Assembly (NCBI GenBank): GCA_028284635.1
Contig: JANQRJ010000053.1
Span: 1 to 45,533, forward strand
Direction: 5' to 3'
Origin: Pelagicoccus sp.
GTDB lineage: Bacteria > Verrucomicrobiota > Verrucomicrobiia > Opitutales > Opitutaceae
DNA length: 45,533 nucleotides
Part shown: positions 1 through 45,533 of the stretch, piece by piece
Layout: every line of letters starts with the position of its first letter
How positions within the stretch are numbered: the first letter of the stretch is position 1
Program-made: the position numbers and the translations under genes
The notes under the pieces: model-generated
Databases searched by the model: none
Seen by the model: only the letters and a program-made list of their open reading frames with translations
Told to the model about the DNA's origin: nothing

Positions 1-48
1 CCCTTGCGCAAACAAAACTTCAACGTTGAAGTTTTGTTTGCGCAAGGG
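1..48. repeat. Perfect 48-bp palindrome at the window edge
   Basis: The first 24 bases (starting cccttgcgcaaac) are exactly the reverse complement of bases 25-48, with no loop. It lies just downstream of the minus-strand CheX-like gene, so it could be part of a terminator, but a stem with no loop and no visible T-run is atypical. Because it sits exactly at the window start, a fold-back assembly artefact at a contig end is an equally good explanation. Confidence 0.75.
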
Positions 49-5619: not shown

Positions 5620-6345
5620 ATGCCAATCGCCTCGGAAATGGTCAACGCCGCAGCCCAGCTGCGCGACGCTGTCGACGCCCTGGAGTTCGCTCCGCCCGTC
5701 GCCTTCGTCTACAATCCTCTGCGCTACGCTTGGCGACCGCACCAAGCCTATCTCGAACGCTACGCCAACAGTCGGAAGAAAGCCGTCCTGCTCGGCATGA
5801 ACCCCGGCCCCTGGGGCATGGCCCAGACCGGCGTGCCGTTCGGCGAAATCGATGTAGTTAAAAACTGGATGCGTATCGAAGAGCCTGTAGACAAGCCCTC
5901 GCCCGAGCACCCGAAACGGCCCATAGTCGGCTTCGCCTGCGAGAAGTCGGAAGTATCGGGCAGACGGCTTTGGGGACTTTTCGCCGAACGCTTCGGCAGC
6001 GCGAAAAGCTTTTTCCAGAACCACTTCACCCTGAACTACTGCCCGCTCGTCTTCATGGAAGACAGCGCCCGCAACCGCACCCCCGACAAGCTGCCCGTCG
6101 CGGAAAGCCAAGCCCTCTTCGAACTTTGCGATGCCCACCTGCGACGCTGCATCGAGCTCCTCGAACCCGAATGGATTGTCGGCGTCGGAGCCTTCGCCCA
6201 AGCCCAAGCCGCCCAAGCGCTGGCAGGTTTGCCGGTCAAACACGCGAAGGTCCTTCACCCCTCTCCCGCCAGTCCAGCCGCCAACCGAGGCTGGGCCGCC
6301 GCAGCGACAAAGCAGCTTCTCGAGCAGGGCGTCTGGGAGAAGTAG
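5620..6345 (+). CDS. SMUG1-type uracil-DNA glycosylase
   Basis: A 241-aa member of UDG family 3 (SMUG1), which removes uracil and oxidised pyrimidines from DNA. Motif 1 is GMNPGPWGMAQTGVPFG (residues 59-75), the SMUG1 form of the UDG water-activating loop. Motif 2 is HPSPASPAANRGW, with the catalytic-loop His213. The uracil-recognition asparagine is likely Asn139 in FTLNYCPL. The full domain is present. It follows the DEDDh exonuclease. The TAG stop codon is supplied by the GTAG end of a palindromic repeat starting at 6342, so the present C-terminus (VWEK) may have been set by the repeat. Confidence 0.88.
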   Translation: MPIASEMVNAAAQLRDAVDALEFAPPVAFVYNPLRYAWRPHQAYLERYANSRKKAVLLGMNPGPWGMAQTGVPFGEIDVVKNWMRIEEPVDKPSPEHPKRPIVGFACEKSEVSGRRLWGLFAERFGSAKSFFQNHFTLNYCPLVFMEDSARNRTPDKLPVAESQALFELCDAHLRRCIELLEPEWIVGVGAFAQAQAAQALAGLPVKHAKVLHPSPASPAANRGWAAAATKQLLEQGVWEK

Positions 6346-6393
6346 CGCGGAGCTTCAGCCCGCGTCCCCGGAGAATCGATGTCGTACCGCTAC
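6342..6393 (+). repeat. Partial REP-type element (GTAGCGCGGAGC family)
   Basis: Bases 6342-6367 match the left arm of the 75-bp palindromes at 22437 and 31149 (gtagcgcggagcttcagccc and the next 6 bases). The conserved loop is absent, and only a short CCGCTAC at 6387-6393 resembles the closing arm. It appears to be a single REP unit or an internally deleted copy. The stop codon of the SMUG1 gene lies inside its first four bases. Confidence 0.75.
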
Positions 6394-20510: not shown

Positions 20511-20891
20511 AATGCCCAAAGAACGAGACTCCAGAGTTTGATAAAGCTCCCACAGACGATTGCTATATTGGGCAAGCTGTCGCCTAGAGCATTTTTCGTT
20601 TGTTCAGTCGCCCATAGGTGGGTCGGCTTCTCCGAAGGCGATCGATTTTCGTCCCGCTGCACATGCTTTATGCGTCTTCGGAGAAGCCGCACCACCCTTA
20701 ATAAGCTTCTTGAAACTGCGACTAACCAAACGAAAAGCGCTCTAGAGCGCTTTCGTATGTTCAGCCGTGCATTGGTAATTGAGCCCCGATCTGAATTCAT
20801 AACAACATACGGCGATCGGGCTCTACCTTTTCAAATAGGAGATCCGCGCTCGTATGAACGCGACTACGCCTGAAGAACTTCCGGGAAGACG
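20511..20891. other. Intergenic region with foldback element
   Basis: Between the gene at 20109 and the ACP gene lie the MITE-like element (20584-20745) and, starting from its right end, a second partial left end (20742-20771, ctagagcgctttcgtatgtt). A 10-bp inverted repeat (gagccccgatc at 20779-20789, gatcgggctc at 20814-20823) also lies here. No gene was seen. Confidence 0.55.
20584..20745. mobile_element. MITE-like foldback element, copy A (162 bp)
   Basis: The two ends are 28-bp terminal inverted repeats: ctagagcatttttcgtttgt at the left, and the complement of ctagagcgcttttcgtttgg at the right, both continuing to agtcgc. Inside lies a second palindrome (ggcttctccgaag at 20626 and cttcggagaagcc at 20677), so the whole unit folds on itself. 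It has no coding capacity. The same sequence recurs at 45404-45533 and, shortened and inverted, at 40073-40131. The ends carry CTAG, which may be a duplicated target. Confidence 0.75.
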
Positions 20892-21143: not shown

Positions 21144-22961
21144 TTAGGATGACAGGTTGGCCGACTCGCCGGGGGCGTGAGCCAGTCTCGACAGCCGGTT
21201 TTCGAGATAGGCTTGCTTGAGCTTGCCGCGCTGCAGCTTGCCGCTAGACGTGCGAGGGATCTGGCCGCGACGCACAAAGACGAGGTCGGAGATCGGCAGC
21301 GAAAGGGCTCGACCAATGCGGCGGCGCATCGCACGTTCGCGTTGTTCAATAGCAGCGGGATCGGAAACCTCCGCCACCAGCACTACTTTTTCGATCCCTT
21401 CGTCTCCGTGTATCGAAAAGGCGGCTACACGTTCGCCAGCCTGGCCAGGAGCAGCCTCCTCGGCCAGCCACTCGATCTCGTGCGGCATAATGTTCTCTCC
21501 ACGCAGTACGATAATCTCCTTGCACCGGCCCGCTATGTAGAGTTCGCCATCGGCTATAAAGCCGAGGTCTCCCGTCTTCAGCCATTCACCTTCCTTGGCC
21601 TCGCCAGTTGCGTATTCGTTCTCGTAATACGCATCGAATACGGCCGGCCCCTTCACCAGGATCTCGCCTAGTTCGCCCTCGTTAAGCGTATCGCCGGAAG
21701 GGCCGACGATTCGGACTTCCGTATCCTCAACGGCCATTCCGCAGCAAGTCACCTCCGCGCTTTCAGTAAAGGCGCTGGAGCTGGCTGGAGTGGCCTGCGT
21801 ACGCACGCCCTTCGCTTGGCAATCGAAAGTCACGGCAAGAGTCGCCTCAGCCATTCCGTAGCAGGGCAGCGTCTTGTCCTTCGTAAAGCCGGTCGGCTCC
21901 ATCAGCTGACAAAAGGCGTGCATGGTTTCAGGACGCACCATCTCCGAACCGGTAACCGCCACCGCCACCTGGGAGAGATCGACGCCCTGCAAGTCATCTG
22001 ACGAAAGCCGATCAACGCAGTACTGGTAGCCGAAATTCGGTCCAGACATGATGGCGCGCTTGCCGCTCAGAGCCTGCAGGTAGCGCAGCGGACGAGCCAG
22101 GAAAGTGGCCGGATTCATCAGGCTGAGTTCCAAGCCATTCACGATCGACATAGTCAGGCAGCCAATCAGGCCCATGTCGTGATGCATCGGCAGCCAGGAG
22201 ACAATCTCGTCAATCCACTGGTTGGCGGGAGCGCCATGGGGGCGGCCAATCGCCTCGTTGATGGCCAGAACGTTGCGGATCGCCATTTGGTGAGTGACGC
22301 GTACCGCCCGCGGCGTACCCGTGGAGCCGCTGGTGAACTGCAAAAAGGCCAGGTCGCTCGGCGAACTTGCAGCGAACGCGTCGTCAAGCGGATCGAGCGC
22401 GGAAAGCTCGCTGGGCGCCACGACAGAGGGGATCTCGTAGCGCGGAGCTTCAGCCCGCGACCGCATTGCATGATCAGACTCGCACGGACGCGGGCTGAAG
22501 CTCCGCGCTACAGAATTCTCACGCAGATCCTCGACCAAACGCTCGGAAGTCAGAATCCGAGTGGCAGAGATAACCTTGCAAAAGGTCCTGAGCCGTTCCG
22601 CAAAGACGCTTGAAGCTCCCAAGCCTCCCACTGCGGGAGCAATGGCCGCCGGGTGAGCGCCAAGACAAACCGCACCGAGCCAGGCATCGAAGAAATCCCA
22701 GGAAGTCGGCAAGCAAAGGAGAATCCGATCGCCTGGCTTGACCCCAAGAGCTCGCCAGCGTCCAACCGCAGCTCGAATGCCGACGAGCAACTCCGGGTAG
22801 CTGCGGCGAGCGGCCCGTCGACCGCTGCGATCGAACACCGAGATACCGCGCTCCGGGTAGATCTCGGCCGCCTGGCACAAGGCGTCCTGAAAGCTTGAAT
22901 ACAGGGAAGAAGCGGAGCTCGACGACCCCGGTCCGCGAATGTGAGCGAGCTTCCGACTCAC
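21144..22961 (-). CDS. Fatty-acyl-AMP ligase (FAAL) carrying an in-frame repeat insertion
   Basis: A 605-aa adenylating enzyme that activates a fatty acid as acyl-AMP for transfer to an acyl carrier protein. The P-loop TSGSTGTPRAVRVTH starts at residue 210. SWLPMHHDMGLIG, YGMAEATLAVTF and WLKTGDLGFIADGELYIAGR are FAAL hallmarks. The C-terminal lysine motif (IPRTSSGKLQRGKL) is present. Residues 151-175 (VARSFSPRPC... to RAEAPRY) are encoded exactly by the 75-bp palindrome at 22437-22511 and are foreign to the family. They lie in the linker before the P-loop, where an insertion may be tolerated. The start is GTG, 2 nt after the diiron gene stop; the ACP gene follows. Activity of this copy is likely but unproven. 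Confidence 0.9.
   Translation of the reverse strand: MSRKLAHIRGPGSSSSASSLYSSFQDALCQAAEIYPERGISVFDRSGRRAARRSYPELLVGIRAAVGRWRALGVKPGDRILLCLPTSWDFFDAWLGAVCLGAHPAAIAPAVGGLGASSVFAERLRTFCKVISATRILTSERLVEDLRENSVARSFSPRPCESDHAMRSRAEAPRYEIPSVVAPSELSALDPLDDAFAASSPSDLAFLQFTSGSTGTPRAVRVTHQMAIRNVLAINEAIGRPHGAPANQWIDEIVSWLPMHHDMGLIGCLTMSIVNGLELSLMNPATFLARPLRYLQALSGKRAIMSGPNFGYQYCVDRLSSDDLQGVDLSQVAVAVTGSEMVRPETMHAFCQLMEPTGFTKDKTLPCYGMAEATLAVTFDCQAKGVRTQATPASSSAFTESAEVTCCGMAVEDTEVRIVGPSGDTLNEGELGEILVKGPAVFDAYYENEYATGEAKEGEWLKTGDLGFIADGELYIAGRCKEIIVLRGENIMPHEIEWLAEEAAPGQAGERVAAFSIHGDEGIEKVVLVAEVSDPAAIEQRERAMRRRIGRALSLPISDLVFVRRGQIPRTSSGKLQRGKLKQAYLENRLSRLAHAPGESANLSS
22437..22511. repeat. 75-bp REPIN-like palindrome inside the FAAL gene
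   Basis: It starts gtagcgcggagcttcagccc and ends with the complementary gctgaagctccgcgctac. The 23-bp outer arms are perfect, and a partly mismatched inner stem follows. The loop contains ttgcatgatcagact (22466-22480). It has the same length and arms as the copy at 31149-31223. On the minus strand it is read as 25 codons without a stop, in phase with the FAAL frame. Confidence 0.92.
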
Positions 22962-22963
22962 GA

Positions 22964-23794
22964 CTAGACAGGCTCCGCTTCCGACTCGCCAGAGGGCGAG
23001 ACTCCGGCGAGGGCTTGCTTGCGACCGCCGCTGATAGCCTTTTCCAGCCGCTCCTTAGCTACGACATCCAGGGTGTGCTGGACCTTTTCCATATCCATTC
23101 CGATAGCGGTCAGCTCCGTACGGATCTCTTTGATAATGGGCGGAACGCCAGCCAGCACATGCTCGATGCGAGCCCGCAGGCCATCGGCCTTGGCATCCGC
23201 CTTTTCCTCGTCCGCCGAGTAGAGGTCGCGAAACTGATCCTCGATGTAAATGTGGTTGAAACCCAGATGACGGGCCTCGTCCTCGATAATGCCGGCGCAA
23301 ACTTCGCTCAGCACTGGATCCAAATCGAGGTCGCGCAGCTCCTGGGCAAGCACCTGCGCCATTGACTCGCTAGCCAACACGCCAGCAAGCCATTCGCTTG
23401 GGTCCTTGGAAACGATACGGCTTTGAAAAAGATAGCCCGAAGGGTGGCGGCGGATCGAGCCAGGCTCCCGGTCCATGCGCTGAAAGAAACGAGCGAACAA
23501 CTCCGTGTGGCGAGCCTCGTCGACCGCCCACGTAGTCAAGTAGAACTGGGCCTCTTGCTGCGACTGGTGCCCCAGCACCGGTATGAGCCCAGAGACGGAA
23601 TAGAGGGCGGACTGCTCGCCGATCAACACCGGGGTCAAAACGCGGGCGAGATCGTCTCTCAGCTTGTCGCTGACGATGCGGCGCGGGGCTTTCCAATCGA
23701 TGTCGGCAGCGGACCACTGCTTTCGGATTCCCTGCTGCCACAAGCGCATCTGGCGCTCGTTGCCCAGGTTCGGCATGACCTTGTAGATGTTCAT
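22964..23794 (-). CDS. Ferritin-like (R2-type) diiron protein of the FAAL-ACP cassette
   Basis: A 276-aa all-helical protein with a four-helix diiron site. Probable iron ligands are Glu60 (LIGEQSALY), Glu93 and His96 (VDEARHTE), Glu143 (ASESMAQ), and Glu173 and His176 (EDEARHLGF). The twin E-x2-H motifs and the order resemble R2-like ligand-binding oxidases and AurF-type N-oxygenases more than acyl-ACP desaturases. The C-terminus is a charged helix. The ATG at 23794 was chosen because upstream sequence is not conserved-looking. It is preceded by a pyrimidine-rich tract. It is first in an operon with FAAL and ACP, so it probably oxidises an ACP-bound acyl chain. The reaction (desaturation, hydroxylation or other) is unknown. 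Confidence 0.8.
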   Translation of the reverse strand: MNIYKVMPNLGNERQMRLWQQGIRKQWSAADIDWKAPRRIVSDKLRDDLARVLTPVLIGEQSALYSVSGLIPVLGHQSQQEAQFYLTTWAVDEARHTELFARFFQRMDREPGSIRRHPSGYLFQSRIVSKDPSEWLAGVLASESMAQVLAQELRDLDLDPVLSEVCAGIIEDEARHLGFNHIYIEDQFRDLYSADEEKADAKADGLRARIEHVLAGVPPIIKEIRTELTAIGMDMEKVQHTLDVVAKERLEKAISGGRKQALAGVSPSGESEAEPV

Positions 23795-23970
23795 GGAAGA
23801 AAAGTAAGATAAGTGGAAGGGACCCTCTCGGTACGAGCAGGCGAGCCATCTGACTTCACTCGAACAAGTTCGCCAGAACAGATCAAACCCGAAATCCAGT
23901 CCCTCCTCTACGCGTTCCATTGACGTGATCACACCCATTGGCCAAGAGTAGCCAGTTCACGTCATTCGCC

Positions 23971-24354: not shown

Positions 24355-24429
24355 TCTGGGAACGCGGGCAGCTTGCCCGCAGCTATGCAGGATCAGACTA
24401 GTTGCGGGCGAGCCGCCCGCGTTCCCAGA
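24355..24429. repeat. 75-bp palindromic element, GGGAACGCGGGC family
   Basis: Arms tctgggaacgcgggcagctt and the complementary ccgcccgcgttcccaga pair with few mismatches. Each arm also contains its own small hairpin (gcgggc/gcccgc), i.e. two inverted REP units. The spacer holds atgcaggatcagact (24385-24399), nearly the same as in the GTAG-family elements at 22437 and 31149. Total length is also 75 bp. It lies just upstream of the glycosyltransferase operon. Confidence 0.8.
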
Positions 24430-31148: not shown

Positions 31149-31223
31149 GTAGCGCGGAGCTTCAGCCCGCGTCCGCGATGCAGGATCGAACTTGCGCGGA
31201 CGCGGGCTGAAGCTCCGCGCTAC
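31149..31223. repeat. 75-bp REPIN-like palindrome upstream of the PL14-like gene
   Basis: A perfect 29-bp stem starting gtagcgcggagcttcagccc and ending gctgaagctccgcgctac, with a 17-nt loop containing atgcaggatcgaact (31178-31192). It is the best-preserved copy in the window and has the same length and arms as the one in the FAAL gene. Confidence 0.93.
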
Positions 31224-40152: not shown

Positions 40153-40343
40153 GTAGCGCGGATCCCGCTCTGCGTATAGGCGTCAACTTAAGCCGAAAGG
40201 CGGTGGGCTGGAGGGCAATGCTCCGTCATTGCCGCAGAGCCTACAGAGGGAATAACCGGTGCGGCAACGACGGAGCGTTGCCCTCCTAAATGAGGTTTCC
40301 TCCGTTAAGTTGACGCATATGCGCTCTGCGGGATCCGCGCTAC
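40153..40343. repeat. Nested palindrome (191 bp)
   Basis: Outer arms starting gtagcgcggatcccgc (40153) and ending gcgggatccgcgctac (40343) extend to about 39 bp with mismatches, up to cgtcaacttaa/ttaagttgacg. Inside sits a second palindrome, ggagggcaatgctccgtcat (from 40210) pairing with acgacggagcgttgccctcc (to 40286). The outer arm shares its first ten bases (GTAGCGCGGA) with the 75-bp elements. This looks like one palindromic element inserted in another. Confidence 0.8.
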
Positions 40344-44512: not shown

Positions 44513-45406
44513 ATGAATCAACTCAACTACCATCATCTGCGCTACTTCCATGCTATTGCTCGGGAGGGTTCGCTCACTAAGGCAGCTGGTCGGCTCAACG
44601 TCTCGCAGTCGGCTCTGAGCATTCAGCTCAAGAAGCTCGAAGAGAGCCTGGGCTCCCCTCTTTTCGAGCGAGAGCACAAGTCGCTGGTCCTTACCGAGGA
44701 AGGCCGCATGGTCATGAGCTACGCGGATTCCATTTTTCGGGCCGGCGAAGAGATGCTGGCGACGTTGCAGCATCGAGGCGGTCGCTACAGAAACGTGCTG
44801 CGGGTGGGAGCAGTCGCTACGCTTTCGAAGAACTTCCAGATCAGCTTCTTGCAGGAGGCGCTGGACGATCAGGATCTCGAGGTCGTCATCTACGCGGCGA
44901 GCATGCGGGAGCTGCTGAGCCAGCTGAAGGCCCATACCATCGACCTGGTTCTTTCCAATACTCCAGCCCCGCGTGAGACCGAACCTTCCACCCGCAGCCA
45001 TCTCTTGGCTGAGCAGCCAGTCAGCCTTGTGGCGTCTCAGGGGAGCAAGGTGGACGAAGGCTTTCGTTTTCCCGAAGATCTTCAACAGGTTCCCATCGCC
45101 TTGCCCAGCCTGGAGAGCAATGTCAGGTCCAGCTTTGACATCATGATGGAGAGGGCCGGCGTGTCGCCCTTGATCGCTGCCGAGGCTAACGACATGGCCA
45201 TGCTCCGCCTTATTGCCAAAGAGACCAGCGCGGTTACGCTTGTCCCGCCAATCGTGGTCAAGGAAGAGCTCAAGTCCGGCGAGCTGCGCGAGCTCTGCCA
45301 AGTTCCGTCGCTGCACGAAACCTTCTATGCGATCACGGTGGCTCGCCGCTATCCCAACCCCTACCTGAAGCGGCTGCTAGACGAGCAGGCGACGGGCAAG
45401 CCCTAG
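44513..45406 (+). CDS. LysR-family transcriptional regulator, divergent from dabBA
   Basis: A 297-aa LysR-type regulator. The N-terminal winged helix-turn-helix is at residues 1-62 (YHHLRYFHAIAREGSLTKAA, then GRLNVSQSALSIQLKKLEES), followed by a linker helix and the two-lobed effector domain (VLRVGAVATLSKNFQISFLQ, TSAVTLVPPIVVKEEL). The effector part resembles NhaR-like members. Divergent placement next to dabB strongly suggests it controls CO2 uptake genes, as LysR genes beside dab operons do elsewhere. The effector is unknown. Its TAG stop lies in the CTAG at the start of a foldback repeat. Confidence 0.88.
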   Translation: MNQLNYHHLRYFHAIAREGSLTKAAGRLNVSQSALSIQLKKLEESLGSPLFEREHKSLVLTEEGRMVMSYADSIFRAGEEMLATLQHRGGRYRNVLRVGAVATLSKNFQISFLQEALDDQDLEVVIYAASMRELLSQLKAHTIDLVLSNTPAPRETEPSTRSHLLAEQPVSLVASQGSKVDEGFRFPEDLQQVPIALPSLESNVRSSFDIMMERAGVSPLIAAEANDMAMLRLIAKETSAVTLVPPIVVKEELKSGELRELCQVPSLHETFYAITVARRYPNPYLKRLLDEQATGKP

Positions 45407-45533
45407 AGCATTTTTCGTTTGTCTAGTCGCAAATAGGTGGGTCGGTTTCTCCGAAGACGACCGATTTGCGTCCCAATGTGCACGCGTATGCGTTCCCGAC
45501 TTCGGTCGGGACCGCACCACCCTCCGAAAATGC
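45404..45533. mobile_element. MITE-like foldback element, copy C (cut by window end)
   Basis: It starts ctagagcatttttcgtttgt, identical to copy A at 20584 for the first 20 bases. It keeps ataggtgggtcgg, tctccgaag and cgtccc in order, then has its own central hairpin (gttcccgac ttc ggtcgggac) and the gcaccaccctcc of the right half. The right terminal repeat is beyond the window. The CTAG supplies the lysR stop codon. Confidence 0.72.

Follow-up and report, generated by a model that had tools for sequence, protein, structure and literature searches.

A GTAG-type REPIN lying in frame within a fatty-acyl-AMP ligase gene of Pelagicoccus sp.

The ligase gene and the element within it

The stretch of DNA analyzed here, hereafter called the window (45,533 nucleotides, contig JANQRJ010000053.1 of Pelagicoccus sp.), contains an uninterrupted gene for a fatty-acyl-AMP ligase, hereafter abbreviated as FAAL, the position of which is given in table 1 together with those of the repeats considered below. 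The deduced protein carries the AMP-binding domain PF00501 (E 1.2e-46), and its best solved relative is the Fatty Acyl-Adenylate Ligase 3pbk (E 3.2e-69), to be compared with an E of 2.5e-22 for 4-coumarate-CoA ligase. On sequence grounds, the host enzyme appears to be nearer to FAALs than to CoA ligases and to have the AMP-binding fold. Its nearest named homologues are found in records titled Opitutaceae and Puniceicoccaceae, the alignment rows of which are identical to rows obtained from genomes of the family. An AurF-like gene ends only 2 bp before the FAAL start codon, and because of this short gap the two genes probably form one operon.

Inside the FAAL gene lies a 75-bp REPIN, that is, an inverted doublet of GTAG-type REP sequences, the arms of which are perfectly complementary over their outer 23 bp and complementary at 96% over 27 bp. 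As single-stranded DNA, the element folds into one hairpin of -38.4 kcal/mol (z -11.4, DNA parameters), a stability reached by none of 200 shuffled sequences. A previous sequence-only reading of this DNA had described a 75-bp palindrome with perfect 23-bp arms lying in frame in the FAAL gene and encoding residues 151-175 without a stop; the inverted-repeat search and the translation of the minus strand confirmed both points, with the REPIN read as part of a 605-residue ORF. This genic, in-frame placement differs from the extragenic placement that is typical of GTAG REPs and REPINs, a difference that does not set the element apart from them, since their published description includes genic exceptions (PMC3733652). 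The sequence FTSGSTG, which we take to be the A3/P-loop motif, starts 34 residues past the REPIN; hence, the earlier statement that the insertion lies "just before" the P-loop is right as to the order of the two but loosely worded.

Table 1. Positions of the host gene, its neighbor and the REP elements in the window
Feature	Position	Strand	Basis
Host gene, fatty-acyl-AMP ligase (FAAL), 605 aa, uninterrupted ORF	21144..22961	-	ORF, PF00501, 3pbk match
AurF-like N-oxygenase (PF11583), immediately upstream of FAAL	22964..23938	-	ORF, Pfam
75-bp REPIN, two GTAG REPs in inverted orientation supplying FAAL residues 151-175, VARSFSPRPCESDHAMRSRAEAPRY	22437..22511	-	Sequence, repeat search, DNA fold
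Left REP arm, GTAGCGCGGAGCTTCAGCCCGCG, exact	22437..22459	+	Inverted-repeat and pattern search
Right REP arm, exact reverse complement of left arm	22489..22511	-	Inverted-repeat and pattern search
29-bp spacer separating the arms; diverged form in other copies (..GCATTGCAGGATC..)	22460..22488	.	Element comparison
Second 75-bp REPIN, 89% identical, open frame continuing into a polysaccharide-lyase-14 (PL14) gene	31149..31223	-	Repeat search, Pfam
Single REP, its GTAG supplying the TAG stop of ORF 5620-6345	6342..6364	+	ORF list, pattern search

An AlphaFold2 model of the FAAL, built on the 22-sequence alignment detailed below, has a mean pLDDT of 85.2, with values below 50 for residues 152-171 and neither helix nor strand within 152-179, a region that follows a helix at 140-152 and precedes a strand at 179-181. 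Four further short segments also have pLDDT below 50, including residues 212-214 in the conserved motif. The low value of the REPIN segment is partly expected regardless of its structure, because this segment is without aligned relatives. The earlier suggestion of a tolerant linker at this site fits the low-confidence, structureless segment of the model, which is presumably exposed.

The repeat family and its transposase gene

The REP arm is abundant in this genome of 4.57 Mb, in which the 23-nt pattern with up to three mismatches occurs at 163 + 149 sites (312 together), the reversed control pattern giving none. The whole 75-mer is found at 40 distinct places besides partial arms (81 matches, mostly one per strand), and its identity with the 39 other places is 78-91% on the better strand. 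Strict REP doublets comprise 17 elements measuring 60-90 bp and 19 measuring 91-151 bp, 75 bp being the commonest length (22 of 58 doublets). With at most one mismatch, the arm is present in 15 of the 57 genomes searched, that of the window included, and was not found in the other 42; the highest number of such sites, 39 + 64, is that of another genome of the same genus. Several doublets of about 101 bp contain a palindrome of the CCCTGAGC..GTCGAAGGG type in their spacer, and several of 130-147 bp have a CTCATC-rich spacer, both being nested repeat families.

A transposase gene with a PF01797 match above the cut-off (C65:67631-67921) has a 75-bp doublet on its 3' side and a REP group on its 5' side, the layout of a RAYT gene bordered by REPs. 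We take the NHIHLL stretch of its product to be the HUH motif and the Tyr in TANYIMNNPV to be the catalytic one. The RAYT ORF (L193 1387-2220, minus strand) ends within the adjoining REPIN, which is read as its C-terminus (YRSAELQPA...), whereas the N-terminus as predicted spans the other REP group, so that the true start probably lies further in. A second, shorter PF01797 match is located at C88:182167-182337 (L209).

The ends and reading phases of the elements were analyzed in 52 of the 58 doublets, the six without canonical ends being dropped. A cytosine adjoins GTAG at 79% of the 104 ends; the FAAL REPIN has this flanking C at its left end and is without the matching G at its right end. 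Identical flanks were found in 4 of the 52 elements for a length of 2 (about 3.8 expected), in none for lengths of 3, 4 and 6, and once for a length of 5 (about 0.07 expected), and target duplication is not evident. The combination of a flanking C with no evident target duplication is as for IS200/IS605-like transposition. Flanks shown for 14 of the 52 elements are all different.

The length of the elements bears on the position of the insertion relative to codons. Among the 52 canonical doublets, 28 have lengths that are multiples of three. In these, phase 0 contains no stop in 48 of 56 strand readings, and neither phase 1 nor phase 2 is open in any of the 56; by inspection, phase 1 opens with TAG, and in phase 2 a TGA is encountered within the second arm. 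Doublets of length 3n+1 are open in phase 0 in 1 of 20 readings and in phase 2 in 9 of 20. For those of length 3n+2, the open readings number 16 of 28 in phase 0 and likewise 16 of 28 in phase 2. Doublets of these two lengths would, however, shift the downstream frame. A random insertion in coding DNA lands on a codon boundary about one-third of the times, and the codon-boundary start of an in-frame survivor of length 3n is forced, because phases 1 and 2 carry stops. Targeted insertion at a codon boundary was therefore rejected: for elements of this kind, such a start is no sign of targeting. The emphasis previously placed on a start "exactly" at a codon boundary is correct as to the position, but the coincidence is imposed by stops in the other phases and is not remarkable.

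Homologues of the ligase and copies in other genes

A search of 252 family genomes at E<=1e-80 gave FAAL matches in nine, the window's own included; one of these matches (L157) is a fragment that stops short of the REPIN site and is not among the seven compared. The peptide of residues 151-175, the presence of which in homologues was to be verified according to the sequence-only reading, is absent from all seven family FAALs covering the site, and likewise from the more distant homologues in the alignment. The nearest homologues are 48-61% identical and the empty site is thus not resolved to the single base. Compared with close homologues, the net gain of the FAAL amounts to 22 residues (a 22-column gap) rather than 25, and therefore about three native residues would have been changed or lost at the entry point; the earlier claim of 25 added residues holds for what the REPIN encodes and not for the net difference in length.

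Other copies were sought as doublets located within an ORF that extends for 30 codons or more to either side, a criterion that is blind to out-of-frame, gene-breaking copies, so that the finding of all internal copies in frame holds by method. Fifteen of the 58 doublets were retained in this way, and Pfam analysis of 11 (the set left out L011, L159, L183 and L190) gave a domain for four, namely FAAL, a KR-domain protein, PL14 and a kelch-symporter, and none for seven. The frames without Pfam match (L162, L164, L172, L176, L178, L185 and L019) were taken as spurious, and visual inspection led to the same judgment for two long frames, at C54:90053 and C79:25749. Searching the genome with the peptide returned 107 matches and added the copies in ComEC and in a thioredoxin-like gene.

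The copy in the KR-domain synthase (C40:6454-6528) lies in the linker immediately ahead of the ketoreductase domain. A search of 56 other genomes gave a single homologue that passed the cut-off, L201, which is without an equivalent peptide; with respect to L201, the net gain is 18 residues, not 25, the gap being in a variable linker. The ComEC (PF03772) copy is a diverged element of 90 bp that starts from residue 55 (L202:1062-1151, C65) and is absent from 7/7 orthologues of the same genus and 2/2 others, these nine having been aligned out of matches in 26 of 29 genomes, the own genome included. Comparison with homologues supports three internal, in-frame copies, in FAAL, KR synthase and ComEC; further genic copies in the same genome, as the sequence-only reading had proposed to look for, are therefore found in the latter two. 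The peptide search was extended to 10 REP-bearing genomes of the family, and among 14 of the loci, taken from four of these genomes, inspection by eye revealed no clear internal insertion; the matches in the remaining genomes also include long frames, for example G033:C244 and G029:C90.

Two of these genes have additional features. Upstream of the KR-domain ORF (L192, C40, around 2310-2410), an acyl-carrier-like synthase ORF ends with CTA AAA AAC TCC TAA and the KR-domain ORF resumes in the -1 frame; the heptamer A AAA AAC is found immediately ahead of the stop, with a modest stem (z -1.1) past it. The homologue L201 has a single frame. This change of frame may be due to programmed -1 frameshifting or else to an indel in the homopolymer and, given its presence upstream, the KR synthase with the REPIN may or may not be functional. 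In ComEC, the right arm of the element is changed and contains a second small palindromic stretch, TCCCGCAGAGGGCGGGA, with the frame kept at 90 bp.

REPINs also occur at or before the N-terminus of PL14 (at 31149), kelch-symporter (L205, C42:26048-26149), the thioredoxin-like protein (90 bp, L206, C39:25707-25796) and CreD (C26:63137). These copies may be leader sequence and were left out of the internal count, that of PL14 probably corresponding to a leader region. In PL14, kelch-symporter and the thioredoxin-like protein, the REPIN lies in open frame directly ahead of putative signal peptides, recognized by eye, and could represent either leader sequence or an N-terminal extension. The ORF ending in the single REP (table 1) is uracil-DNA-glycosylase-like, the stretch noted together with it being 6342-6370.

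Origin of the insertion

REPs lying wholly within ORFs have been reported for several species in a study of GTAG- and CGTC-tagged repeats (BMC Genomics 2013, PMC3733652), in which over half of the intragenic inserts are dimers or groups that encode 20-30 residues and the GTAG type is most numerous in the verrucomicrobium Opitutus terrae. According to the same study, ORFs next to a repeat often take their TAG stop from GTAG, and the inserts may be neutral where they fall in flexible linkers or loops; the portions available also describe transposase genes bordered by REPs (PMC3733652). The present genome resembles those described there in its intragenic dimer, the use of TAG as stop and the REP-bordered transposase gene, and differs in the genes concerned, going by those named in that text. 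In the available parts of the work on Pseudomonas (PMC3116915), REPINs are similarly presented as pairs of REPs in inverted orientation, separated by a spacer, for which a single hairpin is predicted and which are linked to RAYTs, but are primarily extragenic, 14 of the 1,067 commonest 16-mers overlapping genes, whereas at least three copies lie inside genes here. The earlier view that REPs are normally excluded from genes is to be qualified, as genic REPs have been published (PMC3733652).

The palindromic elements of Rickettsia (RPE) are, in the passages accessible to us, about 150 bp long and divided into ten families, with 44 genic insertions in R. conorii (PMC10969869). As described there, they are fused in frame to many unrelated proteins, as here, a likeness in behavior on which we do not class the present element as an RPE; only RPE-4 and RPE-6 are equated with the R. 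conorii repeats of PMC3733652. These elements had been proposed as the nearest precedent, a place that belongs instead to the intragenic GTAG REPs of O. terrae. Intragenic REPs did not turn up in the accessible text of PMC12306157 and PMC8266576 with the words searched, and in a literature search naming the enzyme, the enzyme name was absent among the matches listed. We regard the FAAL case as a new and well-supported instance of a phenomenon that has already been described.

The insertion is very probably that of a RAYT-mobilized REPIN that entered the FAAL gene by chance and survived in frame in a tolerant loop. In the proposed sequence of events, a GTAG-type REPIN, a non-autonomous miniature element mobilized in trans by a RAYT/TnpA-REP transposase, would have entered the FAAL gene of an Opitutaceae-related bacterium, landing ahead of the A3/P-loop motif, in the loop between helix 140-152 and strand 179-181, with the frame preserved. 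The REPIN would then be translated as 25 additional residues of an enzyme that remains functional, and selection would not have removed the allele because the frame was kept and the enzyme still worked. The REPIN and its family, the homologues without it, the open frame with its invariant residues, the RAYT gene among REPs and the other in-frame genic copies are observed; we infer mobilization by the C65 RAYT, translation and retention of the peptide, exposure of the loop and near-neutrality. The comparison underlying this proposal is between sites occupied here and sites without REPIN in homologues of FAAL, ComEC and KR synthase, from which the history would be reconstructed, in the case of FAAL with relatives of 48-61% identity.

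Alternatively, the insertion could have damaged the FAAL and left a young pseudogene that drifts and is still open by chance, as the sequence-only reading had envisaged. The ORF, however, runs over 605 codons with neither stop nor frameshift, and residues that are invariant in the 22-sequence alignment are retained, for instance G212, D465, R479 and K575, some of which are presumably catalytic. This alignment contains 21 homologues and the window protein; from 27 candidates checked for stops, L095 was left out for a stop and L094, L104, L119, L125 and L151 by choice. Against these signs of integrity, the FAAL with the REPIN differs at 24 of the 208 columns (11.5%) that are invariant in six orthologues, compared with 2.1-6.1% for each of the six treated alike, and five of the 24 departures fall at residues 174-179, within or beside the REPIN. 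About half of the departures are conservative, though, and this FAAL ranks among the most divergent sequences of the set that it forms with the six orthologues. The count excludes L154, which has two stops in its matched stretch and was used as one open piece; with L154 included, the values become 11/152 (7.2%) for the FAAL with REPIN, 0-5.4% for the six orthologues and 23.4% for L154 itself. (The two stops of the L154 match, G191:C189, are TGA and TAG; the other FAAL matches listed are without such stops.) The departures suggest mildly faster change in a gene that does not look decayed. The FAAL also appears to be dispensable in the genus, because no match at E<=1e-80 was found in the seven other genus genomes searched. 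Some relaxation is compatible with the data, and we regard a pseudogene as unlikely.

Co-option, in which selection maintains the insertion for an effect of the peptide or of the mRNA hairpin (on activity, as a surface for interactions, a pause in translation or an RNase site), would agree with the occurrence of nearly identical peptides in several unrelated proteins of one genome and with the strong hairpin, albeit computed as DNA; altered activity of REP-tagged repair proteins is also the subject of speculation in the available part of PMC3733652. We consider it very improbable, for FAAL, KR synthase and ComEC have no evident common function, the right arm of the ComEC copy is changed and the FAAL segment is modeled without regular structure. 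It is scarcely credible that the palindrome arose in assembly, or that it is a native and non-mobile part of the gene: even if the assembly is a draft of 104 contigs and a perfect palindrome without spacer at the contig end (window 1-48) is itself probably an assembly artefact, the FAAL copy is mid-contig, homologues are without the palindrome, there are 39 other, non-identical places, and the flanks of elements differ wherever shown.

Besides the chance insertion favored here, the REPIN/RAYT system might act as a recurrent donor of one stop-free, unstructured peptide of about 25 residues (VARSFSPRP...RAEAPRY) to loops and linkers of FAAL, KR synthase and ComEC, perhaps also to the secretion leaders of the thioredoxin-like protein and kelch-symporter, with at least one copy having gained a function, an idea to which we assign a distinctly low probability. 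The FAAL offers a case, accessible to alignment, in which a mobile palindrome of a bacterium has become protein-coding sequence; sibling copies lie in other genes of this genome, the insert is absent from relatives, and the effect of a REPIN peptide on proteins is testable here in a free-standing enzyme with simple assays.

The window contains other repeats as well. A different family with inverted ends (CTAGAGCATTTTTCGTTTG...), MITE-like in aspect, is present at 20583-20748 and 45402-45485, and palindromic repeats with other arms (GGGAACGCGGGCAGC..., GTAGCGCGGATCCCGC...) are found at 24355-24429 and 40153-40343.
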